Source of the DNA: Pseudochrobactrum sp. sp1633
GTDB lineage: Bacteria; Pseudomonadota; Alphaproteobacteria; Rhizobiales; Rhizobiaceae
Length of the DNA: 35,322 nt
Assembly: GCF_030376605.1 (NCBI RefSeq)
Contig: NZ_JARRAE010000022.1
Location: 1-35,322, forward strand
Direction of reading: 5' to 3'
Under the pieces are notes generated by a model. It saw nothing but the letters and a program-made list of their open reading frames with translations. It was not told the origin of the DNA and ran no database searches. The translations under genes were made by a program, and so were the position numbers. This document shows positions 5,521 to 27,672 of this stretch, piece after piece. The number at the start of each line of letters is the position of its first letter. The stretch's first letter is position 1.

Positions 5521-5542
5521 TAATGTAATCTGGAGCCTCCCG

Positions 5543-6511: not shown

Positions 6512-6530
6512 TCTGACAGGAAAAGACGTT

Positions 6531-7547
6531 ATGAAGCTCTCGATCCTTGATCCGGTGCAAATCCCGAATGGCAAAACCTCGGCGGAAGCAGTTCAGGGAT
6601 CGCTCGCTCTGGCTCAACGCGCTGAAGAACTCGGTTATCACCGCTATTGGCTTGTTGAGCATCATAATGTTCCCTATGAGGTTAATCCCGCGCCTGAGGT
6701 GCTTGCTGCGGCACTTGGCTGTGCAACAAAAACAATCCGTATCGGCGTTGGCGGTGTACTGCTCAATCATTACAGCCCCTACAAAGCTGCCGAAGCCTTG
6801 CATACACTGAACGCCCTGTTTCCGGGGCGTATTGATGTGGGTATTGGCCGTGCCACCGCAGGTATTGAGGCCGATACCGCACTCAGGCGTCTGCGGGACA
6901 CGGAAATTCCCGATGATCATGCGCAGCAGACAGAGGAATTTGCCGGATGGCTCGGCAATGACCTGCCTGAAAACTCGCCGTTTCATCAGATAAAGATTAT
7001 GCCGGATCAGCCTGCCCGTGTGCTGCCTTGGGTATTGGCAGCAACCGAAGCCAGCGCCAAACGCGCAGCAATTCTTGGCTTGCCGCTGGCATGCAGTGCC
7101 TTTCACCAACCTGAAAATGCACCGCTGGCAATGAAAGCCTATTATGAGCATTTCCAGCCATCGCGGTTTGCTGCGGGTGTTCAAAAACCTGAAACACTGC
7201 TCGCAGTTCGTCTGATTGTTGCTCCGACGCAGGAAGAAGCTGAACGTCTGGCAATGCCGATGCGGGCAGCTTTTAAATTACGCCGCAAAGATAATATCAT
7301 GCTGGACCATCTCCCCACACCGGACGAAGCAATTGCAATGATGGGTGGCGTATTGCCTGCGGAAGACACGGACTGGCCGGCTTACGTGATTGGCACGCCT
7401 GAGCGGGTTAAATCTGTTCTGGAGCGCATGATGCGGGAAACGCAAGCAACAGAAATTATGGTGCAGGATGTGCTGCATGATGCGCAATTGCGTATCCGTC
7501 ATTATGAATTACTGGCCAAAACATTCGATTTATCCGGTCAGGCTTAA
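6531..7547 (+). CDS. Luciferase-like flavin-dependent monooxygenase (MsnO8-type LLM)
   Basis: The protein has 338 residues and belongs to the bacterial-luciferase-like (LLM) superfamily, which uses reduced FMN and oxygen. The opening 'LSILDPVQIPNGKTSAEAVQ', the segment 'LGYHRYWLVEHHNV' and 'LNALFPGRIDVGIGRA' are typical of the MsnO8/'luciferase family group 1' branch. The frame extends upstream to 6429, inside the binding-protein gene, but the ATG at 6531 has a good site (AGGAAAAG) and matches relatives. It is the last gene of the transporter operon, so it probably oxidises the imported compound or a derivative, for example C-S bond cleavage of a sulfonate. The exact substrate is inference. 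Confidence 0.88.
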   Translation: MKLSILDPVQIPNGKTSAEAVQGSLALAQRAEELGYHRYWLVEHHNVPYEVNPAPEVLAAALGCATKTIRIGVGGVLLNHYSPYKAAEALHTLNALFPGRIDVGIGRATAGIEADTALRRLRDTEIPDDHAQQTEEFAGWLGNDLPENSPFHQIKIMPDQPARVLPWVLAATEASAKRAAILGLPLACSAFHQPENAPLAMKAYYEHFQPSRFAAGVQKPETLLAVRLIVAPTQEEAERLAMPMRAAFKLRRKDNIMLDHLPTPDEAIAMMGGVLPAEDTDWPAYVIGTPERVKSVLERMMRETQATEIMVQDVLHDAQLRIRHYELLAKTFDLSGQA

Positions 7548-7612: not shown

Positions 7613-10600
7613 TCAGAACGTTATCCCCAGTTTGGCATTAACGGAGTTACTCTGATAACCGGAGCCGAACTGGCCACGATAGCTGATGTCAAAACTGGCC
7701 TGCTCACTGGCTTTAACATCGAAACCTGCCTGCACCAGCGCTGTATCTTGCGCAACAGGAATACCCGAAATGTCGAAAGCTGTGCCCGAGGCAAAAGAGG
7801 CACGGCTGATCGGATCTGTATCGCCGAAAGCATGCTGCCAGCCCAGTGTGCCATTGAGGCTGGCTTTCACATCACCCAGCACAACATCCGTTGCCGCGCG
7901 AAGACCAAGCGTTGTGAAAGTGGTGCTCATTGTATTGCCGTCAATGGTCAGAGCAGCATTACCGCCTGCTTCTTTAAACCCGTCTGTTTTCACCGATACA
8001 TAGGCCAGATTAGCAAAAGGCTCAAACACAGCAGTGCCTGTTTGCAGCTTATGGCTGAGTTCACCGAAAGCCTGCACTGTACCTGCATCATAATCCGCAG
8101 TGAGTTTTTCTGAAAAATCAGGGAACCGGACTGAGCGGCTAATATCCACGGAATGCCAGCTATAGGCCAGACCACCGCTCAGAGCTGTGTTGCCCCAATG
8201 TGCACCGCCGTAAAGACCGAGATGATAATTATCGCTCTCACCCGAGGATGCGCGGTTATCAACGTCAAAGCTGGTACGGCTGTAACCGGCCAGAGCACCT
8301 AGTCGCGCATTATCTGCCACTTCCGCATCATAACCCGCAAACACACCACCGGTTGTCTGGCTGAGTCTTGCTGCATTATTATTCAACGCGTTTTCGCTCC
8401 ATGTGCCAAAACTCTGCAACCACAGAGCTGCAGGAGCATCTTTCTCAGAGGCAACCTGTGCACCTTTCTGTGCTGAGGCATCCCCGAAAGCACTCCGCAG
8501 ACGATCCTGCGCGGCATTGCGCAGATCAGCACTCGCATTAACCAGCGTAGTTCTGGCAGATGCATAAATCTCACCGGATAAAAGATTAAACGCATTCAGC
8601 GCATGCTCTTTACTCTCCTGTCCGACAACGGCATCATAAACCGCATTGCCACTCCCCAGAACCTCGACTGAAGCTGCAACTGAACGCTGATTTTCCGTTT
8701 CACCAATGGCATCAAAAGCAATCTGATTGCGCAGCACATCCAGATAGACTGCCTTCGGATCATAGGTCAGACCAAGATTGATAAACGGCATATTCTGGCT
8801 CAGATCAGCAAAGGTGCCGCTGATCCCTGCATCAGCAGTCATGATCGTATAGCGGCTGTCCGGCGCATAAGTGCCTGTTGCTTTTTCTACATAAAGCTTA
8901 GCACCGTCGATTGAAGCCGTTCCCGCAGCATGCACATGATCGGCACTGCCATCCGGATTAATTTCCAGATGATAGAGGGCACCGGTATCCATCACCAGAT
9001 CACCGCTTGTCGTTAATGTGCCAATGGAATTTCCCGGAGCCAGCACGCCGTCTGCAGCAATATGAATTGCACCGAATGTACCAGCGCCGCCAATGAAACC
9101 GCCGTTACGCACAGTAACAGCGCCTGCCACCGAAGCATCACTATGATCCGCATCGCCAACAATCAGCCCGCCGCGTTCAACCAGCGTTCCGCCCGTATAG
9201 CTGTTGGCCGCATTCAGCGTTAAAACACCATCGCCGCGTTTGGTAAGACTGCCGGTTCCGGTGATTGCCTGATCAACTGAGAGATTATTTCCCGCAGCAA
9301 CCACATCAATCCAGCCTTTTCCGTCCAGCACAACTTTACGGTCAAGCTTGTTCATGTCGTGCCCTGCCACACGCAAACCACCATCATTCAACCGCAAATC
9401 AGCGGATGCGCCTCCCAAGGCTGCATCATCATCAACAACGACTGTTCCGCCATCTGAAATCACAGTCTCCCCGATGAAATTGTGATTATCGATACAATAG
9501 TCTCTGACAGCCTGAGCAAACCGCGCATCCGTTGTCTGACAATTGAGAAGCGTTTGCTTTTCTTCTGTCGTCAGATCTTTCAGGATCGGATTGCCGTTCG
9601 CATCCGCAATCTGACCGAGATAAACATCATTACGGTTGTTATTTCTGGTCAGATAAAATTCTTTATTCTTTGTCTCGAAACCGGATGCATCCGCGCCCCA
9701 GATAAGGCGGCTCTTCGTATCATCACCATCTTTATAGGTTTCAAGCTTAGGACCAACCCAGCGCAATGTTTGCGCTATCGGATCGTGGTCAGAAAGCGAA
9801 TTGCCATTTGGCAGCAAAGCAGGCTTTGAAAGCGTACCGGACCATTTTCCGTTATCAACAATCTCCACCCATTTGGCGAAAGGGCGCGACACCATAATAT
9901 GGTCGATATTCGCTCGGTCCCAGCTCTCCCATATATTGGTGGCTTCTTCACCGTCACTGGTCCAGGTTGCACGCTCATCCCCGACATCACTTGGTTTGAA
10001 CTGCTCTCTGTTTCTGTCCAGCTGGATGAGCTGATGCTGCTGCTTCAGAATATTCATCGTTACCGGCAAATTATTCGCGACCGGATAGGTTTCATTGACC
10101 AGACCAATATCTTTTTTGGCCTTATAGGCCTTTTCAAGGGCAGTGCCCCATTGGTTGTAAGACAGGGTATCAATATTGGAACCAGGATATTCTGCCTGAA
10201 TAATTGCGCGATATTTCGCTGTATCAGCCAATCCCAGATATTCTGCGGCCAGCGCAGCATAAAGCTTATTACCGGTTGCTTTTTTTATCAGCCGCAACTG
10301 CGCATCCACACTCAGCAGGCCGCGCTCGGAAATATCACCGGCATTTAAATCGCCAACGAGGATTGTCGGCACAAGATTGGATTGCGCCAGCTTATTGGCA
10401 TCTTTTGCCTGATTGATCCGGTTAACCGGTGCATCCGCATAATTGAAATGGCGCCCCTCAATAACAGTGTCGGGGAAGCCATTGCCCGCTTTCATCAGAA
10501 TAGTATTGGGAGCCAGATATTCCGTATTGCCACTGGAAAAGACCATTCCGCTGCCTTCGCGCGCCTCATGGTCTTTGATTTTTTGATAGGTACCGAGTTT

Positions 10601-10975
10601 ATCCGTCTGCCCGTTGAGCAGATCCAGCGTATTTTTTACATGCGCGCCGACAACACTGTTGCCCTGCCATGTTTTACCGCTGTTATTATAAAGCTCGGGC
10701 ATAACCAGCACATCGGGAGCAACGCCGAGCAGCAGATCCTGCATCGTCTTATTATAAACCAGCGCACCGTTCTTCTTTGCCTCAGCATCCCACATTTTGG
10801 AATCGGCACCATTATTCCAGATATTAAATCCCATAATGGTCAGCGAAAAATTATCGCTTTTTGCCTGCTCAGCCTGTGCACTGGTGCTGATCGCCGCGAA
10901 CAGCAATGCACCTGCAACCCCTGCTCCCAGACCAGATTTATTTTCTGTCCCTGCCCGCGGTTTTCTCATCGTCAC
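7613..10975 (-). CDS. Autotransporter with an endonuclease/exonuclease/phosphatase passenger
   Basis: This is a type V secreted protein of 1120 residues. A signal peptide ends near 'SAQA-EQ' (about 35). Residues ~42-408 form an EEP (DNase I/sphingomyelinase/phosphatase fold) domain: FNIWN (50-54), the metal-binding Glu in MPELYN (Glu94), VGDLNAGD (207-214), IDH (357-359) and the terminal SDHDP (395-399). Residues ~560-640 contain autotransporter-associated beta-helix repeats ('GTGSLTKRGDGVLTLNA', 'YTGGTLVERGGLIVG'). From about 850 a 12-strand beta-barrel domain ends in the expected aromatic residue (LGITF). The passenger should thus be exported and displayed or released at the surface. Start is GTG 10975 or ATG 10969, with AGGAAA upstream of both. 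All core EEP residues appear intact, so it is probably active on nucleic acid, lipid or phosphoester. Confidence 0.9.
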   Translation of the reverse strand: MTMRKPRAGTENKSGLGAGVAGALLFAAISTSAQAEQAKSDNFSLTIMGFNIWNNGADSKMWDAEAKKNGALVYNKTMQDLLLGVAPDVLVMPELYNNSGKTWQGNSVVGAHVKNTLDLLNGQTDKLGTYQKIKDHEAREGSGMVFSSGNTEYLAPNTILMKAGNGFPDTVIEGRHFNYADAPVNRINQAKDANKLAQSNLVPTILVGDLNAGDISERGLLSVDAQLRLIKKATGNKLYAALAAEYLGLADTAKYRAIIQAEYPGSNIDTLSYNQWGTALEKAYKAKKDIGLVNETYPVANNLPVTMNILKQQHQLIQLDRNREQFKPSDVGDERATWTSDGEEATNIWESWDRANIDHIMVSRPFAKWVEIVDNGKWSGTLSKPALLPNGNSLSDHDPIAQTLRWVGPKLETYKDGDDTKSRLIWGADASGFETKNKEFYLTRNNNRNDVYLGQIADANGNPILKDLTTEEKQTLLNCQTTDARFAQAVRDYCIDNHNFIGETVISDGGTVVVDDDAALGGASADLRLNDGGLRVAGHDMNKLDRKVVLDGKGWIDVVAAGNNLSVDQAITGTGSLTKRGDGVLTLNAANSYTGGTLVERGGLIVGDADHSDASVAGAVTVRNGGFIGGAGTFGAIHIAADGVLAPGNSIGTLTTSGDLVMDTGALYHLEINPDGSADHVHAAGTASIDGAKLYVEKATGTYAPDSRYTIMTADAGISGTFADLSQNMPFINLGLTYDPKAVYLDVLRNQIAFDAIGETENQRSVAASVEVLGSGNAVYDAVVGQESKEHALNAFNLLSGEIYASARTTLVNASADLRNAAQDRLRSAFGDASAQKGAQVASEKDAPAALWLQSFGTWSENALNNNAARLSQTTGGVFAGYDAEVADNARLGALAGYSRTSFDVDNRASSGESDNYHLGLYGGAHWGNTALSGGLAYSWHSVDISRSVRFPDFSEKLTADYDAGTVQAFGELSHKLQTGTAVFEPFANLAYVSVKTDGFKEAGGNAALTIDGNTMSTTFTTLGLRAATDVVLGDVKASLNGTLGWQHAFGDTDPISRASFASGTAFDISGIPVAQDTALVQAGFDVKASEQASFDISYRGQFGSGYQSNSVNAKLGITF

Positions 10976-16246: not shown

Positions 16247-17854
16247 TCACGCGGCTCCGTCTCGTCGCAGCACCCGACCGGCTCTTGCACCCGTCGGTTG
16301 TCCTTCAGCAATCACCGCCTGCCCGTTCACAAAAACATGGCTGATCCCTGATGGCATCTGCGTTGAGTTTTCAAATGTGGCGTGATCTGTGATTGCATCT
16401 TCGAACAGCACCAGATCAGCAGCCATTGCAGGGCGCAACAGACCGCGGTCGTGCAGGGAAAAACGTTGCGCCGCAACCGAAGTCATCCGGCGCACGGCAT
16501 CCTCAAGCGGGAACCACTTTTTATCCCGCCGTAAAGGACCGGCAATACGCGGAAAAGTCCCGAAAGCACGCGGATGCGGTTTGGAACCCGGACGCGGCAA
16601 TCCGTCAGACCCAGCCATAAACAAACGGTTGCAACATGCTGCATGGAGATCATCTTCATCAAGCTGAAACAGGATAATCCCCGTCTGCCCGTCATCCTCT
16701 TCAACAAAGCGAACCAGCAGATCAAAAGGTGCCATCCCCAAAGCAAATGCTGCCTCGCGCATGGTCTGCCCTTCCAGATGTTTCAGCGCCTCAATACCGA
16801 TGGCCGAAAGCCGCACATTCTCCCAGCCGATCAGCGAGACTTTACTCTGACCGTGATAATCATCCCCGCCATGATCGACCCAATGCGCCAGTTTCTGCCG
16901 CCATGCCGTATTCTGCAGGCGCGCTTTCAAAGCCAGCAAACCACCGTCCATCACAGCCGCTGGCAGAAGTTGCAATATCCATGTGCTGCCTGCCGGATAG
17001 GGATACATATCAAAGCTGATATCCACGCCATCCGTGCGTAAATTTTCCAGATAGTCGATAACCGCAGGTACATTGCCCCAGTTCGGTCGCCCTGCCGATT
17101 GCAAATGTGAGAGCAATCCGGCTGCACCGGACAGACGCACAGCCTCACCGAATTCTTCTGTCGCCTGCATCAGCCCTGCTTCATAGGAGCGGATATGCGC
17201 GGCCAGCACCCCGCCAAAACCGGCGACAACTTTTCCAAGCGCCACCAGCTCCTCAATCTCAGCAAAAGCACTCGGCGGATAAACCAGTCCCAGAGACAGA
17301 CCTGCCGCGCCTTGCGCCATTTGCACTTCAAGCATTTGGCACATCGCCGCCAGTTCGTTCTCGGTTGCTGGTCGCCGGTCATGCCCCATTACTGCCAGCC
17401 GCAAAGCCGCATGGCCCACAAGCGAGATCAGATTGAGGGCAATCCCCTCTCCTTCCAGTGCCTGATGGTATCCCGAAAAATCATCAAAAATCTCATCAGA
17501 TCGCGTTTCCCCAAGAAGACCGGAGAAATGCTGGCGCAGATATTCACGGGACTGTTCTGCTGCCGGATAAAGCGAAAACGAACAATTGCCAACTACAATA
17601 CTGGTCACGCCCTGCATCGCTTTTTCAGGCCTGTCCCGCTCGCGCAGAAAAATCAGATCATCATGGCAATGGGCATCGATAAAACCGGGGCTTAAATAGC
17701 GCTCATCCGCATCAATGATCTGCACATTCCCGTCTGCTTTCAGACCTCTGCCAATCTGCCGGATTAACCCGCTCCCCAGCAGTACGTCGCCGCGATACCA
17801 GGGCGCACCGGTGCCATCAATGATGCGGGCATTGCGAATGAGCGTTTGTGTCAT
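16247..17854 (-). CDS. N-acyl-D-amino-acid deacylase family amidohydrolase
   Basis: The protein has 535 residues, the usual length of D-aminoacylases, which are metal-dependent amidohydrolases that cut the acyl group from N-acyl-D-amino acids. Visible metal-site features are HCHDD (62-66), the Cys ligand in VVGNCSFS (Cys91), His220 in AHIRSYE, His250 in LSHLQSAG and the Asp of AGSDGLPR. The C-terminus has the typical 'PAMAADLVLFE' beta-sandwich segment. It follows RidA by 26 bases with its own site (CGGAG), so the two form one operon. In this cluster the acyl substrate could be an N-acetylated amino sugar acid such as N-acetyl-D-glucosaminate, rather than an ordinary D-amino acid. Confidence 0.88.
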   Translation of the reverse strand: MTQTLIRNARIIDGTGAPWYRGDVLLGSGLIRQIGRGLKADGNVQIIDADERYLSPGFIDAHCHDDLIFLRERDRPEKAMQGVTSIVVGNCSFSLYPAAEQSREYLRQHFSGLLGETRSDEIFDDFSGYHQALEGEGIALNLISLVGHAALRLAVMGHDRRPATENELAAMCQMLEVQMAQGAAGLSLGLVYPPSAFAEIEELVALGKVVAGFGGVLAAHIRSYEAGLMQATEEFGEAVRLSGAAGLLSHLQSAGRPNWGNVPAVIDYLENLRTDGVDISFDMYPYPAGSTWILQLLPAAVMDGGLLALKARLQNTAWRQKLAHWVDHGGDDYHGQSKVSLIGWENVRLSAIGIEALKHLEGQTMREAAFALGMAPFDLLVRFVEEDDGQTGIILFQLDEDDLHAACCNRLFMAGSDGLPRPGSKPHPRAFGTFPRIAGPLRRDKKWFPLEDAVRRMTSVAAQRFSLHDRGLLRPAMAADLVLFEDAITDHATFENSTQMPSGISHVFVNGQAVIAEGQPTGARAGRVLRRDGAA

Positions 17855-17880
17855 TTCAGGCTCCGGCTTTCAGCTTTTCT

Positions 17881-18225
17881 TTACAAAGCAGCGATTGCAG
17901 TCATTTCCACGCGCAGATCAGGATCGGCAAGACGCGCTTCCACACAGGCACGCGCCGGTGGATTTTCAGGATCAATCCATGCATCATAAACAGAATTCAT
18001 CGCGTCAAAATCCACAATCGCCGGAAGGAATACATTCACAGCCAGTAATTTGGAACGGTCAGTTCCTGCCTGCTGCAAAAGCTGATCAATCTTACCCAAC
18101 ACATCACGGGTTTGCTCTTCAATGGAAGCCTTGCGGTTCTCTGCCACCTGACCGGCAATATGCACCATGCCGCCATAGCTCACGGCCTGACTCATCCGGC
18201 TGCCTTTTTGATAACGCATAATCAT
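17881..18225 (-). CDS. RidA family protein (enamine/imine deaminase)
   Basis: The protein has 114 residues, normal for RidA/YjgF/UK114. These trimers hydrolyse the reactive enamine/imine intermediates released by PLP enzymes. 'GSRMSQAVSYGGMVHIAGQV', 'EEQTRDVLGKIDQLLQQAGTD' and the C-terminal 'PARACVEARLADPDLRVEM' with the conserved Arg are visible. The frame extends to 18306, but those extra codons read through the operator box and promoter. The ATG at 18225 has AGAAGGA upstream and matches relatives. It lies first in an operon with the deacylase and in a cluster with a PLP enzyme, which fits a clean-up role for that enzyme's intermediate. Confidence 0.88.
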   Translation of the reverse strand: MIMRYQKGSRMSQAVSYGGMVHIAGQVAENRKASIEEQTRDVLGKIDQLLQQAGTDRSKLLAVNVFLPAIVDFDAMNSVYDAWIDPENPPARACVEARLADPDLRVEMTAIAAL

Positions 18226-18272
18226 ACCCGTATTTCCTTCTGTCATCGTCACTTCTGATTGTAAACTTCTGC

Positions 18273-18300
18273 TTGCCTGCATAATAAAATCCAATATAAC
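18273..18300 (+). promoter_or_regulatory. Putative promoter of the IclR gene
   Basis: TTGCCT (18273-18278), a 16-base spacer and TATAAC (18295-18300), about 36 bases before the ATG. The -10 box lies inside operator copy A, suggesting autoregulation. Confidence 0.45.
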
Positions 18301-18305
18301 AGACA
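18288..18305. promoter_or_regulatory. Putative IclR operator, copy A
   Basis: AATCCAATATAACAGACA on the plus strand. The core TCCAAxATAACxGACAT recurs in the only other divergent region of this cluster (24458-24475). It overlaps the predicted -10 of the IclR gene and the predicted start of transcription of the ridA operon, as expected for a repressor site. Confidence 0.55.
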
Positions 18306-18312
18306 TAGTAAC

Positions 18313-18318
18313 ATTATA
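18313..18318 (-). promoter_or_regulatory. Putative -10 box for the ridA operon
   Basis: The minus strand shows a perfect TATAAT. A rough -35 (TGACAT) lies 18 bases upstream, inside the start of the IclR gene. The predicted transcription start falls on the edge of operator copy A. Confidence 0.45.
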
Positions 18319-18336
18319 GTGCTCATCGGAGACAGC

Positions 18337-19125
18337 ATGTCAGACAACACCGCATCCACTCCGGTCACGTCCAAAGAAGACAGCAGCAAACGTGCACGCG
18401 GTCTGGATCGTGCCTTTGAGATACTGGATTTTCTGCGCAACAAGCGTGAACCGCTGAAACCCAATGAAATTGCCGCCCAGATCGGTGCCCCGCGCTCTTC
18501 GGTTTACGAACTGGTCAATCTGCTGCTGCGCAATGGTATTCTCGAATTTACCGGCGGCGATGGCCGCGTCTTTCTCGGACGCAAATTGTATTTTCTCGGC
18601 GCCGCTTATGAAGATCATTTTGACTTCATGCGCGAGTGTGACAGTGCACTGGAGCGCATTGCTGAACAGACCCGCGAAACAGCGCAATATTGTGTGCTTG
18701 ACGGCAATAAATACACCGTCGCCCGCATGAAAGAGGGGGTGCGCCCGTTCCGCATCTCCTCCGATGTCGGTCATTCTGTGCCTATTCCGTGGACAGCATC
18801 CGGTCGCCTGCTGGTCGCCCATCTCAGCGATGAAGAAATTACCACTTTCATTCCTGCTGCCGATTTCCAGATGCCCAATGGCAGCTGGCTTGATCCGGCG
18901 GAATTTATCGCGCAGGTGCGTGAAGCGGACAGAACCGGACAATTCACCTTCAACAGCACGGTCGACAATTTCACTCACTGTTTTGCCGTACCAATGCGTG
19001 ATGCGCAGGGCATTGCCACCGCGACGCTGTGTCTTGTTGCACCCCGCGATGACGGGCTGAAGAACCATACTTTCTATCTGCAATGCCTGAAAGAGGCCGC
19101 GCAGGCGCTCAGTGGCAAACACTGA
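18337..19125 (+). CDS. IclR family transcriptional regulator
   Basis: The protein has 262 residues. The N-terminal winged helix-turn-helix ('GLDRAFEILDFLRNKREPLKP', 'NEIAAQIGAPRSSVYELVNLL', 'GILEFTGGDGRVFLGRKL') is followed by the IclR effector domain ('IAEQTRETAQYCVLDGNKYT', 'GHSVPIPWTASGRLLVAHLS', 'HCFAVPMRD'). The frame is open to a GTG at 18319, but GGAG six bases before the ATG at 18337 decides the start. It sits divergent from ridA and beside a KDG-kinase-like cluster. KdgR, the classic KDG-responsive repressor, is also of the IclR family, so a sugar-acid effector is plausible but not shown. Confidence 0.92.
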   Translation: MSDNTASTPVTSKEDSSKRARGLDRAFEILDFLRNKREPLKPNEIAAQIGAPRSSVYELVNLLLRNGILEFTGGDGRVFLGRKLYFLGAAYEDHFDFMRECDSALERIAEQTRETAQYCVLDGNKYTVARMKEGVRPFRISSDVGHSVPIPWTASGRLLVAHLSDEEITTFIPAADFQMPNGSWLDPAEFIAQVREADRTGQFTFNSTVDNFTHCFAVPMRDAQGIATATLCLVAPRDDGLKNHTFYLQCLKEAAQALSGKH

Positions 19126-19157
19126 CTGGAAGAAGGGCACTTGTTTCACCGGACGCG

Positions 19158-20981
19158 TCATTGGAATATGAAATGCCCTTCTGAAACTTCACGCATCTGG
19201 CGTTGCACCGGCACATAGTCCGGCGCACGGACAGGGCTGTGCAACTCATCGGCAATCTGACCACGCCGCATACCGCGCCGTGCAGGATCAGGCACCGGCA
19301 CTGCTGCCATCAGCTTTTTCGTATAAGGATGCTGCGGGTTTTCAAACACCGCTGCACGCGGCCCGATCTCAACAATCTCGCCCAGATACATCACCGCAAC
19401 ACGGTGACTGAGACGCTCCACCACCGCCATGTCATGGGAAATAAACAGAAAAGACAGGTTGAGGCTGGATTGCAGATCGAGCAGCAGATTAATCACCTGC
19501 GCCTTAATGGAAACATCAAGAGCGGACACGGATTCATCGGCAACAATGAGTTTCGGATCAAGCGCCAGAGCACGCGCAATACAAATACGCTGACGCTGCC
19601 CGCCGGAAAATTCATGCGGAAAGCGCGAGGCCATATCCGCTTTCAGCCCCACCCGCTCCAGCAGATCAGCCACGCGTTCCCGCGCCTGTTGTCTGGTGCC
19701 GAGCTTATGCTCCAGAAACGGCTCCGCAATCGACGCGCCGACCCGCATACGCGGATTGAGACTGGCATAAGGATCCTGAAAAATCATCTGCATGGTACGG
19801 CGCAGACCTTGCAGCTCATGCCCTGCCATGGCCATCACATCCTGCCCGTTGACCATAACGGAACCGCTTTGCGGCTGTATGAGCCGCATGATGGAGCGGC
19901 CGGTCGTCGATTTACCGCAACCGGATTCCCCGACCAGCGACAGCGTTTCTCCCGGTTGCAGCGAGAAAGAGACATTCTCTACGGCGTGCACTCTGCCCGC
20001 CAGTCGCCCGAATAGTCCGCTGTGAATGGTAAAACGTGTCGTCAGCCCTTTCACATCCAGAATGGGAGCCGCATCCTGCGCAACTGTATCGGCAGCCTCC
20101 ACAGGCGGCAGTGCCGTACCGGTACGGATATCAACAACCGGAAAACGCAGTGGGCGCACACGTCCAGTCATCGAACCAAGTGCAGGCACGGCTGATAGCA
20201 AAGCCCGCGTATAAGGATGTTTCGCATCACGGAAAATCGTGGTCGTATCACCGGTTTCCACCGCATCACCATGATACATCACCACCGTGCGATCAGCGAT
20301 TTCTGCAACCACGCCCATCTCATGGGTGATGAACAGTACCGAAGTGCCTTCCTCTTCCTGCAGGGTTTTAATCAGGTCGAGGATCTGCCCCTGAATAGTC
20401 ACATCCAGCGCGGTAGTCGGCTCGTCGGCAATCAGCAATTTCGGGCGGGTGACCAGCGCCATAGCGATCATCACGCGCTGGCGCATACCGCCGGAGAAAC
20501 AATGCGGATATTCATTGAACCGGCTTGCGGCAGACGGAATGCGAACCTTATCCATCAGGCGCAGAGCTTCAGCCTTTGCCTCTGCCTTGCTCATATTGCG
20601 ATGGCATAACAGAGCTTCACAAATCTGGTCTCCCACCGTGTAAAGCGGGTTGAGCGACGTCATCGGCTCCTGAAAGATCATCGCGACATCATTGCCGCGT
20701 ATTTTTTGCATTTCATGCTCGGACAGCTGCAAGATATCTTTGCCGGCAAGCAGAATATTCCCTTCAATCCGGCTGGTATCCGGCTGCAACAACCGCATGA
20801 CAGAAAGAGACGTTACACTTTTTCCTGAGCCGGATTCCCCGACCAGCGCCACGGTTTCCCCTGCACCGACATCAAAGGAGATGTTTCTCACAACCGGCCG
20901 CCAGCCGCCCTCACCGAGAAAAGACGTTGTGAGGTTTTGCACACGGAGCACAGGCTGTTTGTCTGATAAATGGCTCATCAT
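19158..20981 (-). CDS. Fused double ATP-binding protein of an oligopeptide-type ABC transporter (DppD-DppF)
   Basis: The protein has about 607 residues. Two complete peptide-transporter-type ATPases are joined in one chain. The first half has GESGSGKSVTSL, LSGGMRQR-like (FSGGMRQR) and ADEPTTALD. The second half has GESGCGKSTTGRS, FSGGQRQRICIARAL and ADESVSALD. Each half ends with the oligopeptide-family extension ('HPYTRALLSAVP', 'HPYTKKLMAAVPVPDP'). The long open frame to 21074 runs into the permease gene. The ATG pair at 20981/20978, with GAGGA upstream and four bases after the permease stop, is the likely start. It energises the two permeases upstream. Dpp-type systems carry di- and oligopeptides and also some oligosaccharides. 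Confidence 0.92.
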   Translation of the reverse strand: MMSHLSDKQPVLRVQNLTTSFLGEGGWRPVVRNISFDVGAGETVALVGESGSGKSVTSLSVMRLLQPDTSRIEGNILLAGKDILQLSEHEMQKIRGNDVAMIFQEPMTSLNPLYTVGDQICEALLCHRNMSKAEAKAEALRLMDKVRIPSAASRFNEYPHCFSGGMRQRVMIAMALVTRPKLLIADEPTTALDVTIQGQILDLIKTLQEEEGTSVLFITHEMGVVAEIADRTVVMYHGDAVETGDTTTIFRDAKHPYTRALLSAVPALGSMTGRVRPLRFPVVDIRTGTALPPVEAADTVAQDAAPILDVKGLTTRFTIHSGLFGRLAGRVHAVENVSFSLQPGETLSLVGESGCGKSTTGRSIMRLIQPQSGSVMVNGQDVMAMAGHELQGLRRTMQMIFQDPYASLNPRMRVGASIAEPFLEHKLGTRQQARERVADLLERVGLKADMASRFPHEFSGGQRQRICIARALALDPKLIVADESVSALDVSIKAQVINLLLDLQSSLNLSFLFISHDMAVVERLSHRVAVMYLGEIVEIGPRAAVFENPQHPYTKKLMAAVPVPDPARRGMRRGQIADELHSPVRAPDYVPVQRQMREVSEGHFIFQ

Positions 20982-20985
20982 GTCC

Positions 20986-21849
20986 TCACATATCTTTACG
21001 CAAACGTGGGTCGAGAAGATCGCGCAATCCGTCCCCCACCATCTGCAAAGACAGCACGGCGAGAATGATGGCAAAACCCGGAAACAGCGTCATCCAGTCT
21101 GCCTGTCCGACATATTGACGGCCGGAAGCAATCATCGTTCCCCATGTCGGGATTTCCGGACTGACACCAAGCCCCAGAAAGGACAGACCGGCCTCAGCAA
21201 GCATGGCCTGCGCAAACAGAAACGTCCCCTGCACCAGAATAGGTGACAGCAAATTGCGCAACACATGGCGGGTCATAATATGCGGCGTGGAAATGCCCAG
21301 CGCACGCGATGCCTCAATATAAGGCAGTTCGCGGATAACGAGTGTTGAAGCGCGCACCACACGCGCCAATCTCGGTGCATAGACAATCGACAGCGCCACA
21401 ATCACTGTTGTCAGCGAAGGGCCGAGTGCGGCCACCAGCGCAATCGCCAGCAGAATATCAGGAAACGCCATCATCGCATCAATCAGACGCGCAATCGGCG
21501 TATCCAGCCGCTGAAAAAAACCGGCCAGCAGACCGAGCGTGATACCAATGACAGAGGCCAGCACCACCACGGCGGCACCGACTGCCAATGACAGCTGCCC
21601 CGCATAAAGTGTGCGGGAAAACACATCGCGGCCAAATTCATCGGTGCCGAAAAACCATGTGCCATTGGGCGCAGTCAGACGGTTACTAATCGATAATTTA
21701 CCCGGTGCATAGGGTGCAATCAGCGGCGCCAGCACAGCCAGTAGCACAAAAACCGTCAGGACAAACAGGCCAAATGCAACGGTGCGGCGACGCAACAGGC
21801 GACGGATGAATAACCGCGTTTCTGAAGTCTTTTCACTTAAAACAGCCAT
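20986..21849 (-). CDS. ABC transporter permease, DppC type
   Basis: This is an inner-membrane subunit of 287 residues. It has an N-terminal helix after a basic stretch ('RRLLRRRTVAFGLFVLTVFV') and the DppC-type periplasmic loop 'FFGTDEFGRDVFSRTLYAGQ'. The coupling loop is 'EASRALGISTPHIMTRHVLRNLLSPILV', and the C-terminus is 'FPGFAIILAVLSLQMVGDGLRDLLDPRLR'. It is co-transcribed with the other permease (one-base overlap) and with the ATPase. Confidence 0.93.
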   Translation of the reverse strand: MAVLSEKTSETRLFIRRLLRRRTVAFGLFVLTVFVLLAVLAPLIAPYAPGKLSISNRLTAPNGTWFFGTDEFGRDVFSRTLYAGQLSLAVGAAVVVLASVIGITLGLLAGFFQRLDTPIARLIDAMMAFPDILLAIALVAALGPSLTTVIVALSIVYAPRLARVVRASTLVIRELPYIEASRALGISTPHIMTRHVLRNLLSPILVQGTFLFAQAMLAEAGLSFLGLGVSPEIPTWGTMIASGRQYVGQADWMTLFPGFAIILAVLSLQMVGDGLRDLLDPRLRKDM

Positions 21850-22790
21850 CAGTAACGCACCCTCGGATCGACTGCCAGATAAAGCATATCAATGGCAAAA
21901 TTAATCAGAACATAGAGCGCGGCAATCACCAGCAATGCCCCCTGAATAACAGGATAATCACGGCGCATCACCGCAGACACTACCAGATTGCCGACACCAG
22001 GGAGGCCAAACACCGTCTCGGTCACCACTGCGCCGGAAATCAGCACAGCTGCGGTCAGCCCGATCACGGTCAGAATAGGGATCAGTGCATTTTTAAACGC
22101 ATGCTTCATCACCACACGTCTGCCATTCAGCCCTTTGGCTTTGGCCGTGCGCACATAGTCATCGCCCAGTACATCCAGCATAGAAGCGCGGGTAAAACGC
22201 ATAATCAAAGCGGAGGACACGATGCCCAGCGCGAAAGACGGAAGCACCAGATGCATCATCCGCTGGCCAAAACTCGTATCGGGCCCGCCATAACCGGAAA
22301 CCGGAAATAAGCCGTAACGTACGGCAAATACCTGCATCAGCAGCAGGCCGAGCCAGAAACTGGGAATACTGGCGGCAAACATCGCCACTGCTGTCGCCGT
22401 CTGATCGAAAAATGAGCCACGTTTAACCGCGGCATAAATCCCGACCGGCAAGGCAATCGCACTGGCAATCAGAATGGAAAACAATGTGAGAAAGAATGTC
22501 GGCTCTGCGCGCTCAGCAAGCGCATGCGCCACCGGTTGGTCGAGAAAGATTGACTGGCCAAGATCACCGCGCAGCAATTGCAGCAGGTAATAGCCATATT
22601 GCACCGGCAAAGAGCGGTCGAGACCGAGCTTTGTACGCAGCGTTTCAATGTCGGCCTGCGTTGCCTCCGGCCCCAGCATCACAGCAGCAGGATCGCCCGG
22701 CGTAACCCGTACGATCACAAAAACGATCGTCACAACCAGAAACATGACCACAATCATGCCGATCAGACGCTGTATGATATAGCGTATCAT
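21849..22790 (-). CDS. ABC transporter permease, DppB type
   Basis: This inner-membrane subunit of 313 residues opens in the typical way for DppB ('IRYIIQRLIGMIVVMFLVVTIVF', 'RVTPGDPAAVMLGPEAT'). The coupling loop is 'RTAKAKGLNGRRVVMKHAFKNALIPILTV', followed by 'TETVFGLPGVGNLVV'. GGAGA before the ATG gives a clear start. It follows the binding-protein gene, separated by a strong intercistronic hairpin, and pairs with the DppC-type permease to form the channel. Confidence 0.93.
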   Translation of the reverse strand: MIRYIIQRLIGMIVVMFLVVTIVFVIVRVTPGDPAAVMLGPEATQADIETLRTKLGLDRSLPVQYGYYLLQLLRGDLGQSIFLDQPVAHALAERAEPTFFLTLFSILIASAIALPVGIYAAVKRGSFFDQTATAVAMFAASIPSFWLGLLLMQVFAVRYGLFPVSGYGGPDTSFGQRMMHLVLPSFALGIVSSALIMRFTRASMLDVLGDDYVRTAKAKGLNGRRVVMKHAFKNALIPILTVIGLTAAVLISGAVVTETVFGLPGVGNLVVSAVMRRDYPVIQGALLVIAALYVLINFAIDMLYLAVDPRVRY

Positions 22791-22816
22791 TCAGTCTCCA
22801 CCCAAACATATTTCAA

Positions 22817-22850
22817 GCCGCGTTGTCTCCTCCTCCGGAGACAACGCGGC
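22817..22850 (-). terminator. Intercistronic hairpin after the binding-protein gene
   Basis: GCCGCGTTGTCTCC / GGAGACAACGCGGC is a perfect 14-bp stem around a six-base loop, nine bases after the binding-protein stop. The following tract is only weakly T-rich. It likely acts as a partial terminator or 3' stabiliser that keeps binding-protein mRNA above permease mRNA. Confidence 0.75.
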
Positions 22851-22859
22851 CTATTTTAT

Positions 22860-24389
22860 TTATTGCGTAACGGAAGCATTCCAGAAATACGGCCAAGGCG
22901 CAGGCGTAACGCCGTCCAGTTTCTTGGATTTCGCAGACAGATTGTTAAAGTTACCGACCTTGATGAACGGCACTTCGTCGAACACGACTTTCTGTACGTC
23001 TGCCCAGAGTGCCGCACGCTTCTGCGGATCAGCTTCCGCATTAAACGCATCCATCACCTTGGCGCGAGCCGGTGTATTCCACTTGCCCGGTGCACTGACA
23101 GAAAGCGGATCAATCAGAGCCGGTTCCGGCAGGAACGGACTATGGGTAATATAAATATCCCAGAGTGCCGGATCAGCACGGCGCTGGGTGAGCGTTGCCC
23201 AATCCACCACCTGCATATCAACAGTGAAGCCGGCCAGTTTCAGATATTCAGCCGCAACTTGCGCCATTTTGTAATGGAATTCATATTGGCGGCTGGTGAG
23301 AATACGCAGCGGCTCGCCATTATAACTGGCAGTTTTCAGCAGGGCTTTTGCGGCCACTGCATCACCGACATTATAGCTGCCTTCCGATCCCGCATCTGTG
23401 CTCCAGATAAATTGGGACGGATAGAGCGATGGTTCAGCGCTGAAGAAATCCTTGCTGCCATAGGCAGCAGTCAGCATATCCTCATTATTCAGCGCCACCT
23501 GAACGGCTTTACGCAGATCACGGTTTGCAGCAATGCCTTTGGAGGTATTCATAATGAACACCGGCCAGCCGAACGGCTTGAGCATAACCGCATCCGAAGA
23601 TGCTGAACCGGACACACGGTCAAAAGCCTCAACCGGCAGCGCATCAACATAACCATACTGGCCGGAAACAGCAGCTTCTACACGGGTGCTGGCATCAGGC
23701 ACAGGTACAAAACGGATTTCATCCAGATTCTGCTGACGGCCACCGGCATAACCGCTCGGCTCGCCTTCCTGCGATTTATAACCGTCATAACGCACTAGCT
23801 GAATATACTGATCCGGCTTACGCTCTTTGAACTGATAAGGGCCGGTACCGACAAATTCGGTCATTGGTTCAGCCTGTTTTTCAGCAGGCAAGACAATCGC
23901 CGCGGAATTGTTAAAGGCGAGCAGAGATGTCAGTGGCGCATAAGGCTGCTTCAAGGTGATTTTGATGCTGTGATCGTCAACCGGCTCAATGGCTTCAATC
24001 AAAGTCGCTGCCTGCTTGCCGCGCGAGGCTAAGGTTGTCCAGCGTTTGAGCGATGCCACAACATCTTCCGAAGTCATGTCCGAACCATCGTGGAATTTGA
24101 CACCCTCACGCAATTTAATCAGATAGGTTTTGCCGTCGGCAGAAATTTCCGGAAGGCTGGCAGCCAGAAGCGGCGCCGGTTTCCAGTCTTTATCGAAAGT
24201 ATAAAGCGTCTCAAACATATGCTGACTGACAATACCGACGAGATCAGCCGTTGAGACCATCGGGTCCAGTGTCGGCGGCTCACCAATAGTTGCCACATCC
24301 AGCACGCCGCCTTTTTGCTGTGCGAAAGCGGATGGTGTCAATGCGATTGTCGCGGCACCCAATAACAGCGCCAGTTTCATTGCCTGCAT
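22860..24389 (-). CDS. Oligopeptide-type (family 5) periplasmic substrate-binding protein
   Basis: The protein has 509 residues with a signal peptide (MQAMKLALLLGAATIALTPS, cleaved after 'AFA'). The mature protein has the SBP_bac_5 pattern: 'GGVLDVATIGEPPTLDPMVSTAD', 'LREGVKFHDGSDMTSEDVVASLKRW', 'FVGTGPYQF' and the C-terminal 'VVFDEVPFIKVGN'. The frame is open to 24476, but that extension reads through the operator box. The ATG at 24389 with TGGGGGT upstream starts the signal peptide. Family 5 proteins bind peptides, and some bind chito- or cello-oligosaccharides, so the ligand could be a peptide or an oxidised sugar. Confidence 0.92.
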   Translation of the reverse strand: MQAMKLALLLGAATIALTPSAFAQQKGGVLDVATIGEPPTLDPMVSTADLVGIVSQHMFETLYTFDKDWKPAPLLAASLPEISADGKTYLIKLREGVKFHDGSDMTSEDVVASLKRWTTLASRGKQAATLIEAIEPVDDHSIKITLKQPYAPLTSLLAFNNSAAIVLPAEKQAEPMTEFVGTGPYQFKERKPDQYIQLVRYDGYKSQEGEPSGYAGGRQQNLDEIRFVPVPDASTRVEAAVSGQYGYVDALPVEAFDRVSGSASSDAVMLKPFGWPVFIMNTSKGIAANRDLRKAVQVALNNEDMLTAAYGSKDFFSAEPSLYPSQFIWSTDAGSEGSYNVGDAVAAKALLKTASYNGEPLRILTSRQYEFHYKMAQVAAEYLKLAGFTVDMQVVDWATLTQRRADPALWDIYITHSPFLPEPALIDPLSVSAPGKWNTPARAKVMDAFNAEADPQKRAALWADVQKVVFDEVPFIKVGNFNNLSAKSKKLDGVTPAPWPYFWNASVTQ

Positions 24390-24457
24390 TTTCTGAACCC
24401 CCAATTGTTTGCCTGCATCAGGTGATGCAGCTCCTCCTCGGTATGATTTTTCATTTT

Positions 24458-24475
24458 TGTCCAAAATAACGGACA
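24458..24475. promoter_or_regulatory. Putative IclR operator, copy B
   Basis: TGTCCAAAATAACGGACA has perfect 5-base inverted arms (TGTCC/GGACA). It shares the core TCCAAxATAACxGACAT with copy A at 18288-18305. It lies downstream of the predicted promoter of the binding-protein operon and upstream of that of the PLP-enzyme operon. Confidence 0.6.
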
Positions 24476-24493
24476 TTAGTCTATTTTACCGGA

Positions 24494-24522
24494 TTGACGT
24501 ATCTCAATACAGTATGCATAAC
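24494..24522 (+). promoter_or_regulatory. Putative promoter of the PLP-enzyme/kinase operon
   Basis: TTGACG (24494-24499), a 17-base spacer and CATAAC (24517-24522). Operator copy B lies just upstream. Confidence 0.45.
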
Positions 24523-24529
24523 TTGTCAA
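24500..24529 (-). promoter_or_regulatory. Putative promoter of the binding-protein operon
   Basis: On the minus strand TTGACA (24529-24524) is followed at 17-18 bases by TGAGAT/GAGATA. It overlaps the divergent promoter, and operator copy B lies about 20 bases beyond the expected transcription start. Confidence 0.4.
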
Positions 24530-24607
24530 GAGGGCGGCTCGCCAGACCGGCACGTTTTTTGACGGCCATAGCGGGAATATGCAGAGCCGGAAAATTTGTG
24601 AGGAAAA

Positions 24608-25690
24608 ATGGAACCTAAACTTGCAGACCAATTGAACACACCGGCAATTGTGGTGGATCTGGATATTGCGGAAAGAAATATCCGTAATTTTCAGTCCTAT
24701 GCTGACCAACATGGTTTCAAGGTGCGTCCTCACATCAAAACGCACAAATTACCGGCGCTGGCCTATGCCCAGCTTGCAGTCGGTGCGGGCGGCATTACCT
24801 GCCAGAAGATCTCTGAAGCAGAAGCCATGCTCGACGGCTTGCAAAAACAGTATGGTCTCTCCCCTGACCTGTTGATTACCTATAATATTTTAGGCAGCGA
24901 AAAACTTGACCGGCTCAAAGCGCTCGCGCACCGCACAAAACTGAGTGTGGTTGCGGATAATCTGACTGTGATTAACGGTCTGTCCGAAGCTTTCGTCAAT
25001 GAGGCACAGCCGTTAACGGTGCTGGTAGAGTGCAATACCGGTGCAGACCGCTGTGGTGTAGCAACACCTGAATCAGCAGCAGAACTTGCCAAGGCCATTC
25101 ATAATGCTGCAGGGCTGCAGTTCGGCGGCCTGATGACCTATCCGCCTGCCAATGCCCATGCTGCAGTTGAAAGCTTCATGGAGCAGGCAAAACAAAAAAT
25201 CGAAGCATCCGACATCACAGTTCCGCTCATTACCTCCGGCGGCACGCCCTCAATGATGAGCGCGGCTGATGCCCCTGTTGTCACAGAATACCGCCCCGGC
25301 ACTTATATTTATAATGACCGTTCGCTCGTTGAGCGCGGCGCTTGCAGTTACGATGATTGTGCGTTTTTTGTTCTGGCTACCGTTGTGTCCGCGCCGTCTG
25401 ACAACCGCGCAATTATTGATGCAGGCAGCAAAACGCTGACTTCTGACCTGTTCGGATTGAGTGGTTATGGCCATGTCCTCGGACGTGATGATATCCGCAT
25501 CGATCAGCTGTCAGAAGAGCACGGCCGTCTGGTCAGCGACAAGCCGATCAACCTCAAGGTCGGCGACAAAGTGCGGATCATTCCGAACCATGTCTGCGTC
25601 GTCACCAATATGTTTGACAGCGTCTATATTCAGCGCAATGGCATGGTCACAGAAAGCTGGCCAATTGCAGCGCGCGGCAAACTGGTCTGA
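24608..25690 (+). CDS. PLP-dependent enzyme of the D-threonine aldolase / D-serine dehydratase family
   Basis: The protein has 360 residues. The N-terminal alanine-racemase-type barrel carries the PLP lysine in RPHIKTHK (Lys44). It also has 'CNTGADRCGVATPE', 'LMTYPPA', 'TSGGTPSM' and the typical 'EYRPGTYIYNDRSLV'. The C-terminal beta domain ends with the family metal site HVC (His328, Cys330). Members are D-threonine aldolase, D-serine dehydratase and, as I recall, bacterial D-glucosaminate dehydratase. The neighbouring KDG-kinase-like gene nine bases downstream favours a dehydratase making 2-keto-3-deoxygluconate, with RidA helping the imine step. The start is supported by GAGGA upstream. 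Confidence 0.88.
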   Translation: MEPKLADQLNTPAIVVDLDIAERNIRNFQSYADQHGFKVRPHIKTHKLPALAYAQLAVGAGGITCQKISEAEAMLDGLQKQYGLSPDLLITYNILGSEKLDRLKALAHRTKLSVVADNLTVINGLSEAFVNEAQPLTVLVECNTGADRCGVATPESAAELAKAIHNAAGLQFGGLMTYPPANAHAAVESFMEQAKQKIEASDITVPLITSGGTPSMMSAADAPVVTEYRPGTYIYNDRSLVERGACSYDDCAFFVLATVVSAPSDNRAIIDAGSKTLTSDLFGLSGYGHVLGRDDIRIDQLSEEHGRLVSDKPINLKVGDKVRIIPNHVCVVTNMFDSVYIQRNGMVTESWPIAARGKLV

Positions 25691-25698
25691 GGTTAATC

Positions 25699-26592
25699 AT
25701 GAGCGGACAGTTTCTCGCCATCGGTGAGGCAATGATCGAGCTTGCCCCTGATGGCAGCGGCTTGTTACGGCAGGGCTTTGCCGGAGACACCTTCAATGCC
25801 GCTTATTATGCCCGTGCAGCACTACCTGCGGACTGGCAGGTTAGCTATTTCACTCTGCTCGGGCAGGATGCAATGTCCGATGCCATGTTGGCATTCATGG
25901 CACAAAAACAAATCGGAACCGACTATATAAGCCGTCATGCCACACGCATGCCCGGCCTCTATATGGTGCATCTCAATAATGGTGAGCGCAGCTTCTCTTA
26001 TTGGCGGTCACAATCCGCAGCGCGTCTGCTGGCAGAAAACAAAATGGCATTGCGGCAGGCCATTGAAGCTTCTGATATTATTGTTTTCTCCGGCATCACG
26101 CTGGCAATCCTTGAGGGTGACGGTGCCGATAATCTGCTCAGCATTCTGCAAGAGCTCCGTGATACGGATAAGATTATCGCTTTCGATCCCAATATTCGTC
26201 CTCGCCTCTGGGAGGATAAAAACCATATGCGCGCGCAACTGATCCGAGGTGCCAAAGCCAGTAATCTTGTCTTGCCGAGTTTTGATGATGAGGCCACCTG
26301 CTTCAGTGATCTGACGACAACAGACACAATCAGCCGTTATAGCAGCTATGGTCTCAACCGGATCATCGTCAAAAGCGGTGCGGATGCAATTGAGGCACTT
26401 TTTGACGACCAGTCTTTTACTGTCAAAACAGCGCCCGTCGCACAGATTATTGACACGACCGGTGCAGGCGACAGTTTCAACGGTTCATTCTTGGGGCATT
26501 TCGCATGCACAGGTGATGCCGGAGCCGCTATTCGTTTTGCAGCGCAAACCGCAGCAAAAACCATTCAGCATTATGGTGCTCTGGTAGACTAG
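25699..26592 (+). CDS. PfkB family sugar kinase, 2-keto-3-deoxygluconate kinase-like
   Basis: The protein has 297 residues. It has the ribokinase/PfkB N-terminus ('FLAIGEAMIEL', 'GFAGDTFNAAYYARAAL') and the C-terminal signature DTTGAGDSFNGSF with the catalytic Asp. 'SYWRSQSAARLL' and 'FDPNIRPRLW' are KDG-kinase-like features. It would phosphorylate KDG to KDPG for the Entner-Doudoroff aldolase. It follows the PLP-enzyme gene at eight bases with TGAGGT as ribosome-binding site. Other PfkB substrates cannot be excluded. Confidence 0.88.
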   Translation: MSGQFLAIGEAMIELAPDGSGLLRQGFAGDTFNAAYYARAALPADWQVSYFTLLGQDAMSDAMLAFMAQKQIGTDYISRHATRMPGLYMVHLNNGERSFSYWRSQSAARLLAENKMALRQAIEASDIIVFSGITLAILEGDGADNLLSILQELRDTDKIIAFDPNIRPRLWEDKNHMRAQLIRGAKASNLVLPSFDDEATCFSDLTTTDTISRYSSYGLNRIIVKSGADAIEALFDDQSFTVKTAPVAQIIDTTGAGDSFNGSFLGHFACTGDAGAAIRFAAQTAAKTIQHYGALVD

Positions 26593-26752: not shown

Positions 26753-27532
26753 TTAGCGATAAACTATACCGCCGTCAGTCAGAATGGCCTGACCGGTAAT
26801 ATAATCGGAATCCGGCCCTGCAAGGAAAGAAACCAGCGCCGCCACATCATCCGGTGTTTGCGCACGGCCAAGGGCAATCCCTTCAACAAATTTCTTGTAG
26901 GTCTCGCCCTTCGGTGCACCGGTGATTTCCGCAAAGCGTTCGTCAATTTCCACCCACATATCGGTGCCGACAATACCTGGGCAATAGGCATTCACGGTAA
27001 TTCCCGCGCTGGCATATTCTTTGGCCGCAGCCTGCGTCAGCGCCCGCACCGCAAATTTGGTTGCGGAATAAACGCCCAGCATCGCGAAACCGTCATGACC
27101 AGCAATGGATGAGGCATTGATGATTTTGCCTTTGTGACCGCGTTCTTTGAACTTTGCCGCCGCTGCCTGAATGCCCCAGAGCACGCCTTCAATATTAATC
27201 TTGAAAATCCGGTCAACCTCTTCCGGCATCACCTCAGACAGTGGCTTAACCTGCGCGATACCGGCATTGTTCACAATCACATCAAAACCGCCGAGCTCTT
27301 TCTCGGTGTAGTCAATCGCGGCATAGATATCATCGCGCTTGCTGACATCAGCAGCAAAAGTGGTCACCTTGCGTCCCAGCGCTTCAACTTCTTTGGCAAC
27401 CGCTTCCAGCTTGTCTTCTTTCAGATCCACCAGCGTCAGGTCGAAACCGTCTTTCGCCAAACGCAAAGCAATGCCGCGGCCAATGCCCTGCGCAGCACCG
27501 GTAACTAATGCAACCTTATTGGTAACAGTCAT
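26753..27532 (-). CDS. Short-chain dehydrogenase, acetoin (diacetyl) reductase type
   Basis: The protein has 259 residues. It is a classical SDR with the NAD(P)-binding [10 protein letters not shown] near the N-terminus, NNAGI, the catalytic Ser in INASSIAG, and YSATK (the Tyr and Lys of the YxxxK motif). '[15 protein letters not shown]' and '[20 protein letters not shown]' are very like acetoin reductase/2,3-butanediol dehydrogenase. The ATG at 27532 has AAGGA seven bases upstream; the TTG at 27538 is less likely. An FNR-type box upstream suggests expression under low oxygen, which fits disposal of reducing power through acetoin. Confidence 0.9.
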
Positions 27533-27672
27533 AACCAAATCCTTTTCGTCTATGTAATCGGAAACACAGGATCAGCAACATGCCGCGTATACGAGGCCGC
27601 AATATGGCTTACCATAGAATAAGCAACTGACCTGACTTAACTGAGAGCTTAAACAATATTGATATTAATTCA

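Follow-up and report, generated by a model that had tools for sequence, protein, structure and literature searches.

A nine-gene cluster and its layout

A stretch of 35,322 nucleotides from the soil-type bacterium Pseudochrobactrum sp. sp1633 (contig NZ_JARRAE010000022.1, from position 1), here called the window, carries at positions 16247-26592 a nine-gene cluster for a deacylase, a RidA protein, an IclR regulator, a Dpp-type importer, a pyridoxal 5'-phosphate (PLP) enzyme and a PfkB kinase. The source genome measures 3.89 Mb and is 99.96% complete. A preliminary description had listed these genes and proposed that they degrade N-acetyl-D-glucosaminate (GlcNAc1A); in the scan of the window, every gene that it named was found where it had been placed, intact and contiguous with the others. 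Judged by its genes, the cluster is self-contained and probably catabolises an N-acyl amino-sugar acid to 2-keto-3-deoxy-6-phosphogluconate (KDPG).

The cluster opens on the reverse strand with the deacylase gene (16247..17854), whose product of 535 aa belongs to the D-aminoacylase family (Pfam Amidohydro_3), forms a subfamily of its own and keeps the Cys/His/His and Asp site. Next on the same strand is the gene for a RidA-family imine/enamine deaminase (17881..18306; Ribonuc_L-PSP, 92.6 bits), divergent from the forward-strand gene for the IclR-family regulator (18319..19125; HTH_IclR and IclR_C). The importer is encoded on the reverse strand by a two-domain Dpp/Opp-type ATPase (19158..20978; two ABC_tran and two oligo_HPY stretches), permease C (20986..21849; BPD_transp_1 and OppC_N), permease B (21849..22790; BPD_transp_1 and BPD_transp_1_N) and a family-5 solute-binding protein (22860..24476; SBP_bac_5, 238.7 bits). 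On the forward strand, the fold-III PLP enzyme, predicted to be of the beta-hydroxy-D-amino-acid dehydratase type (24608..25690; Ala_racemase_N and D-ser_dehydrat, with an HxC metal site), is followed by the KdgK-like PfkB kinase (25699..26592), which begins 8 bp past the PLP stop codon. For RidA, IclR and the ATPase, translation probably begins somewhat 3' of the longest-ORF start.

Relatives of the PLP enzyme were gathered from other genomes (loci with L numbers), the best 80 of 132 loci being taken. The top five, at 91-96%, are the Pseudochrobactrum-type loci L002-L006, which hold the full gene set in identical order at 81-99% identity to the window, with the kinase 5-8 bp behind the PLP gene; this shared order shows that the set is not a chance neighbourhood. 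One of them, L003 (JAHREI010000005.1), bears the record title Bacillus subtilis SK6B4 and has the Pseudochrobactrum cluster at 93-98%, and is probably a contaminated or mislabelled assembly. The solved relatives of the binding protein include AgaA, which binds an opine, and the agrocinopine binder AccA as well as peptide and nickel binders, so the Dpp type of the importer does not imply a peptide substrate.

The PLP enzyme, the kinase and the deacylase

Chemistry of the kind proposed here has been described in Pseudoalteromonas prydzensis, in which OngB deacetylates GlcNAc1A, OngC deaminates glucosaminate to 2-keto-3-deoxygluconate (KDG), KDG is then phosphorylated by KdgK, and growth depends on the RidA protein OngD, whose role is unknown (PMC9537276, PMC12017989). 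This ong pathway, reported complete in Gammaproteobacteria and one Betaproteobacterium (PMC9537276), is a chitin-oxidation route of marine bacteria, and its steps are those that the preliminary description proposed for the window. In both systems a D-aminoacylase-fold deacylase, a fold-III PLP deaminase, a RidA protein and a KDG kinase are clustered, and the same reaction order is proposed for the window. However, the ong clusters use an SSS symporter and a MurR/RpiR regulator (PMC9537276), whereas the window has a Dpp ATP-binding cassette (ABC) importer, an IclR regulator, a PLP enzyme of another clade and a deacylase of another subfamily, in an alphaproteobacterial host.

The metal site of the PLP enzyme was compared in an alignment of 102 rows, which three OngC-like proteins enter twice. 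It reads HxC in 97 rows, the window included, and HxD in four solved aldolases, the remaining row, from the first part of the L084 gene, which is split, being unreadable. The metal ligands are His and Cys in D-serine dehydratase but His and Asp in D-threonine aldolase (D-TA) (PMC4401734), so the window enzyme is dehydratase-type by its metal site. It shares HxC with D-threo-3-hydroxyaspartate dehydratase (3wqc) and D-serine dehydratase (3anu, according to PMC4401734), although these score only 119 and 82 bits and the window enzyme, unlike them, has a sugar-acid neighbourhood. In a tree of 36 rows picked from the alignment, it falls in a 26-row clade (support 99/97) with 3wqc and Azospirillum enzymes.

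The kinase was called KDG-kinase-like in the preliminary description, and its best NCBIfam family (KdgK, NF052444, 234-235 bits) and its motifs support that assignment at the level of sequence. It aligns over nearly its full length with the solved KDG kinases 4e69 and 3lhx and has the YWR/SAAR and RPRLW stretches of 4e69, YWR and RPRLW being found in 3lhx as well; it stays under the cut-off of the NCBIfam equivalog. A PfkB gene lies within 7 kb in 20 of 86 PLP loci, and eight of these 20 (L002-L006, L014, L016, L017) show the motifs of the window kinase; in L065 both are present as variants, L054 has one and ten have neither. Two of these ten, L018 and L026, have the KDG/2-keto-3-deoxygalactonate kinase as their best family. 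In a search of its own genome, the window kinase is the sole strong KdgK-like gene (235 bits, the next at 36.5), and the KDPG aldolase family (PF01081) has two matches there. Among the other genomes of the order, the eight that carry the deacylase subfamily all have a KdgK homologue of at least 295 bits; the background in the order is 44 of 101 genomes, the source genome included, at the same E-value limit, and eight of 101 at 295 bits or more. The possibility that the kinase is a chance neighbour was rejected on its kept place behind the PLP gene, its status as the sole strong KdgK-like gene and this co-occurrence.

The deacylase was aligned in 52 rows, in which two genes are present twice (L106/L135 and L107/L136) and position 298 relies on a gap-free loop. 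Its subfamily comprises 18 rows, namely the window, L002-L006, a Ciceribacter row, three Azospirillum rows and L127-L134. Among 397 genomes of the order, 50 match the deacylase at E 1e-30; nine do so at 60% identity or more and the next falls to 36%, a gap that marks the group as a discrete family. Like P. prydzensis OngB (PpOngB; PDB 9kb1/9kb3, PMC12017989), the window enzyme has the subtype V metal site (Cys97/His222/His252), the catalytic Asp368 and His68/His70; D-aminoacylases have the metal and catalytic residues too, so these do not discriminate for a GlcNAc1A deacetylase. The acetyl pocket is likewise shared, Y194 being retained and, on reading of the alignment, L116 and L370 too, and so are the carboxylate contacts Y285, S291 and R379.

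The remaining OngB contacts divide the rows. The full set E226/K254/S290/S291/S292/Q298 occurs in only four of the 52, from Klebsiella (L088), Vibrio (L089), Pseudoalteromonas (L090) and Telmatospirillum (L023), and the first three of these deacylases are located within ong-like clusters. Y226, Q254, G290 and S291 are invariant in the 18 subfamily rows; position 292 is T in 12 of them and S in six, and position 298 is L in 16 and M in two. The window enzyme, with Y226/Q254/G290/T292/L298, is 34-38% identical to the four signature-bearing rows, which do not include the full PpOngB sequence, and differs from PpOngB also by an insertion of roughly 45-50 residues, common to some other rows. The pairing of Y226 with Q254 recurs in L092 and L122-L124, so loss of K254 need not abolish carboxylate binding. 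By score, the best solved relative is a D-aminoacylase (274 bits), followed by 9g5m (253), whose printed letters are those of the Klebsiella OngB-like protein in L088, and PpOngB (218). As the OngB sugar contacts are absent, the deacylase was rejected as an OngB.

The IclR regulator and neighbourhoods in other genomes

The preliminary description had pointed out that KdgR is of the IclR type; the regulator of the window is far under the cut-off of the KdgR profile (NF011671), with 63.9 of 275 bits. Relatives of it are found at 61-72% in L009, L013, L014, L016, L017, L023, L025 and L087, and at 66-82% in L128-L131, the L128 match covering 19% of the query because the locus end cuts the gene. 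A palindrome TGTCC-N8-GGACA, a candidate IclR operator to which no strand is assigned, lies between the binding-protein and PLP genes (24458..24475). Its exact form occurs 11 times in 25 IclR-bearing loci, always in a PLP or binding-protein promoter, six of the occurrences belonging to one lineage; in 81 other loci there is one match (L012), also just upstream of a PLP gene and on a truncated contig. Exact arms with spacers of 4-7 and 9-12 bases give 0-2 matches in IclR loci and 0-3 in the others. Degenerate copies stand at the same promoters in L013, L023 and L084-L087, and among L128-L131 the palindrome is at the expected place, with at most one mismatch, in L131 only. In the source genome, the bare arms occur at five places and a reversed control pattern at 11; the arms alone are thus not rare there, and it is their placement in the different loci that carries the operator claim. 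A second candidate operator, TCCAATATAACAGACA (18290..18305, forward strand), is degenerate, with two mismatches to the core, lies in the divergent RidA/IclR promoter and recurs in L002-L006 with 2-3 mismatches. The IclR protein may bind the TGTCC-N8-GGACA site.

The neighbours of the conserved genes vary among lineages. In L128-L131, the deacylase (69-76%), RidA (78-89% identical, with 74-81% of the query aligned) and IclR stand as a trio whose neighbours are an OngC-like enzyme, an Amidohydro_2 protein and parts of a CUT2 importer (Peripla_BP_4, BPD_transp_2). These assignments come from Pfam for six proteins of L130 and one of L128 and from similarity for the others; of the PLP enzymes, only those from L128 and L130 entered the tree. 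The Amidohydro_2 protein has one solved relative at E 1e-10, 4dlf, a relative of sugar lactonases, and is called lactonase-type here on that basis. RidA and IclR relatives are nearby but weaker in L132 and L133 (28-42%). Telmatospirillum L023 has IclR and PLP relatives at 61% beside its full-signature deacylase and a GntP-family symporter. In Shinella, Rhizobium, Ancylobacter and Aminobacter, relatives of IclR and the PLP enzyme occur together with RidA and a polar amino-acid importer, a statement based on annotation for Shinella only; three Aminobacter loci hold the kinase at 53-57%, in a different position.

Other gene families recur at these loci. An M81/MlrC-type metallopeptidase gene lies beside a D-TA-like HxC PLP gene in 40 of 86 loci, a count that possibly includes shadow ORFs (for example L026:8529-9995, the only one confirmed by Pfam, L050, L054, L060, L065 and L074); some of these loci also hold RidA, a TRAP or Dpp importer and a PfkB kinase, and the M81/MlrC-type protein may do the work of the deacylase as an alternative amidase. 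Near the PLP gene in seven loci there is a second amidohydrolase/deacetylase family, NF006689 (L007:6575-7783, L030:16665-17825, L010, L033, L041, L042 and L044), with its cut-off exceeded in both scanned members. The family of L130:10820-12010, the L130 member of which has no Pfam match, recurs beside clusters in L008, L015, L033, L082, L129 and L131. The small protein L134:10861-11346 (161 aa, without a Pfam match) has kin at 57-60% in L069, L071, L072, L074, L076, L078, L080 and L081; its family adjoins RidA/PLP clusters and, once, the deacylase subfamily. In the window itself, a short-chain dehydrogenase/reductase gene (26753-27538, reverse strand) that exceeds the acetoin reductase cut-off (TIGR02415, 371.9 bits) adjoins the cluster and is probably outside it. 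Farther away are NMT1-type ABC importer parts with a luciferase-like monooxygenase (4005-7547) and a 1120-aa autotransporter (7613-10975).

Proposed route, substrate and meaning

From the gene content, the HxC site, the kinase motifs, the shared palindrome, the neighbourhoods and the aldolase-family gene, all read from sequence, we infer every substrate, reaction and binding event of the route. The Dpp-type importer would take up a glucosaminate-type oxidised amino sugar in the form of an N-acylated 2-amino-2-deoxy aldonic acid, and the zinc amidohydrolase would strip its acyl group, which is most probably acetyl. From the beta-hydroxy D-amino acid the PLP enzyme, assisted by its metal, would then eliminate water and after it ammonia. 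This would give a 2-keto-3-deoxy sugar acid, namely KDG in the case of glucosaminate, the released enamine or imine being hydrolysed by RidA. The KdgK-like kinase would phosphorylate the sugar acid to KDPG, to be split by a KDPG-aldolase-family protein encoded elsewhere in the genome, and the IclR protein would govern the cluster from the TGTCC-N8-GGACA site that lies between the importer and PLP genes. The type of route in the preliminary description is thus supported by the four protein kinds shared with ong, the KdgK-like kinase, the dehydratase HxC site and the sugar-acid neighbourhoods; its specific substrate is not.

Several observations weigh against a sugar-acid route. The kinase, at 234-235 bits, is under the NF052444 cut-off of 400, which none of 101 genomes of the order passes, so that this threshold may be tuned to other lineages; the eight KdgK-bearing genomes represent only four genera and are therefore not independent. 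Azospirillum L084, L086 and L095 have the importer, deacylase, RidA and PLP genes and no annotated kinase 8-12 kb to either side, and in L127 and L134, among nine subfamily loci from the order, neither RidA nor IclR lies within 20 kb. The PLP tree sets 31 rows, the window included, apart from three OngC-like proteins and two from L128/L130 (split 100/100), the OngC-like ones being labelled by cluster context in L088-L090 and P. prydzensis OngC not being among the rows. The enzyme is therefore of the dehydratase type by its metal site but lies outside the OngC-like clade. By score, the best solved PLP relatives are aldolases (181, 172 and 170 bits), ahead of the dehydratases, and since OngC is also active on D-serine and D-threonine (PMC9537276), a PLP dehydratase alone is no proof of a sugar substrate. 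In the deacylase, the sugar-hydroxyl contacts E226Y, S290G, S292T and Q298L and the carboxylate contact K254Q are changed, and G290/T292/L298 are common to some D-aminoacylase-type rows. The GntP family of the L023 symporter includes the D-serine carrier DsdX, against which this symporter scores 296 bits, below the cut-off. Unlike the hosts of the oxidative chitin pathway, the source genome gave no match at E 0.001 to the lytic polysaccharide monooxygenase (LPMO, PF03067), GH18 chitinase (PF00704) or GH20 hexosaminidase (PF00728) families.

GlcNAc1A itself, handled by the ong pathway with other parts as first proposed, is a possible substrate and a doubtful one. The arguments for an N-acyl amino-sugar acid apply to it equally, the acetyl pocket is retained, the OngB-like 9g5m is close behind the top D-aminoacylase, and IclR and PLP relatives occur beside the full-signature deacylase of L023. 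Yet E226, K254, S290, S292 and Q298 are all altered, and in PpOngB the S292T change leaves 1.3% of kcat/Km and Q298A and Q298N leave 6.9 and 10.0% (PMC12017989); six of the 18 subfamily rows do keep S292. The top-scoring solved relative is, moreover, a D-aminoacylase, and with the OngB residues missing, the PLP enzyme outside the OngC-like clade and the regulator far under the KdgR cut-off, the preliminary choice of GlcNAc1A was not borne out.

Plain catabolism of N-acyl-D-amino acids or D-amino-acid peptides, in which the deacylase would free D-serine, D-threonine or the like, the PLP enzyme would dehydrate it and RidA would clear aminoacrylate, with the kinase an unrelated passenger, is unlikely. 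It would suit the AfDam-like G290/T292 and L298, the Dpp type of the importer, the rhizobial loci that combine the same IclR and PLP genes with a polar amino-acid importer and no deacylase, and the Azospirillum version without an annotated kinase. It leaves aside, however, the KdgK-like kinase, which directly follows the PLP gene in L002-L006 and also occurs, in another position, in three Aminobacter loci, the CUT2 importer parts and lactonase-type enzyme beside the same trio, the OngC-like partner in L128/L130, and the KdgK co-occurrence in eight of eight genomes. A cluster of the beta-hydroxyaspartate or D-TA type is very improbable: BhcC is the top NCBIfam match of the PLP enzyme (223 bits), BhcR is among the IclR matches and solved aldolases score highest, but both NCBIfam matches are far under their cut-offs (690 and 350), the metal site is HxC rather than HxD, and the ten scanned proteins include no aminotransferase, threo-hydroxyaspartate dehydratase or iminosuccinate reductase. 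The beta-hydroxyaspartate and D-TA readings were both rejected on these grounds.

The deacylate-deaminate-phosphorylate chemistry is already published as the ong pathway, and the cluster here would be a rebuilt variant of it. This variant was not found in the literature searched on glucosaminate, GlcNAc1A and KDG, a search for which subscription papers were mostly outside scope; papers that combine the enzyme kinds of the cluster came down to the ong paper, and the passages covered of two others, PMC11653859 on Aeromonas and PMC12343721 on haloarchaea, describe no such cluster. It could be, as a tentative and rather unlikely extension, that the deacylase subfamily is the mark of a pathway so far unrecognised in Alphaproteobacteria, whose substrate would be an oxidised amino sugar different from the GlcNAc1A of chitin, such as another epimer or a glucosaminate released from bacterial envelope glycolipids, under a conserved IclR/TGTCC-N8-GGACA regulon, with the modules (importer, deacylase, PLP dehydratase, kinase) swapped between lineages and the regulator and chemistry constant.

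With no match to LPMO, GH18 or GH20 in its genome, the organism would be a scavenger. Since the type of PLP enzyme changes next to a deacylase-RidA-IclR trio that is conserved, a small set of purified proteins would allow a direct test of the substrate. If the N-acyl amino-sugar-acid reading is true, oxidised amino sugars would be scavenged beyond the gammaproteobacterial, chitin-oxidation setting of the published pathway, and a large PLP family so far named only the D-TA family would gain a function.

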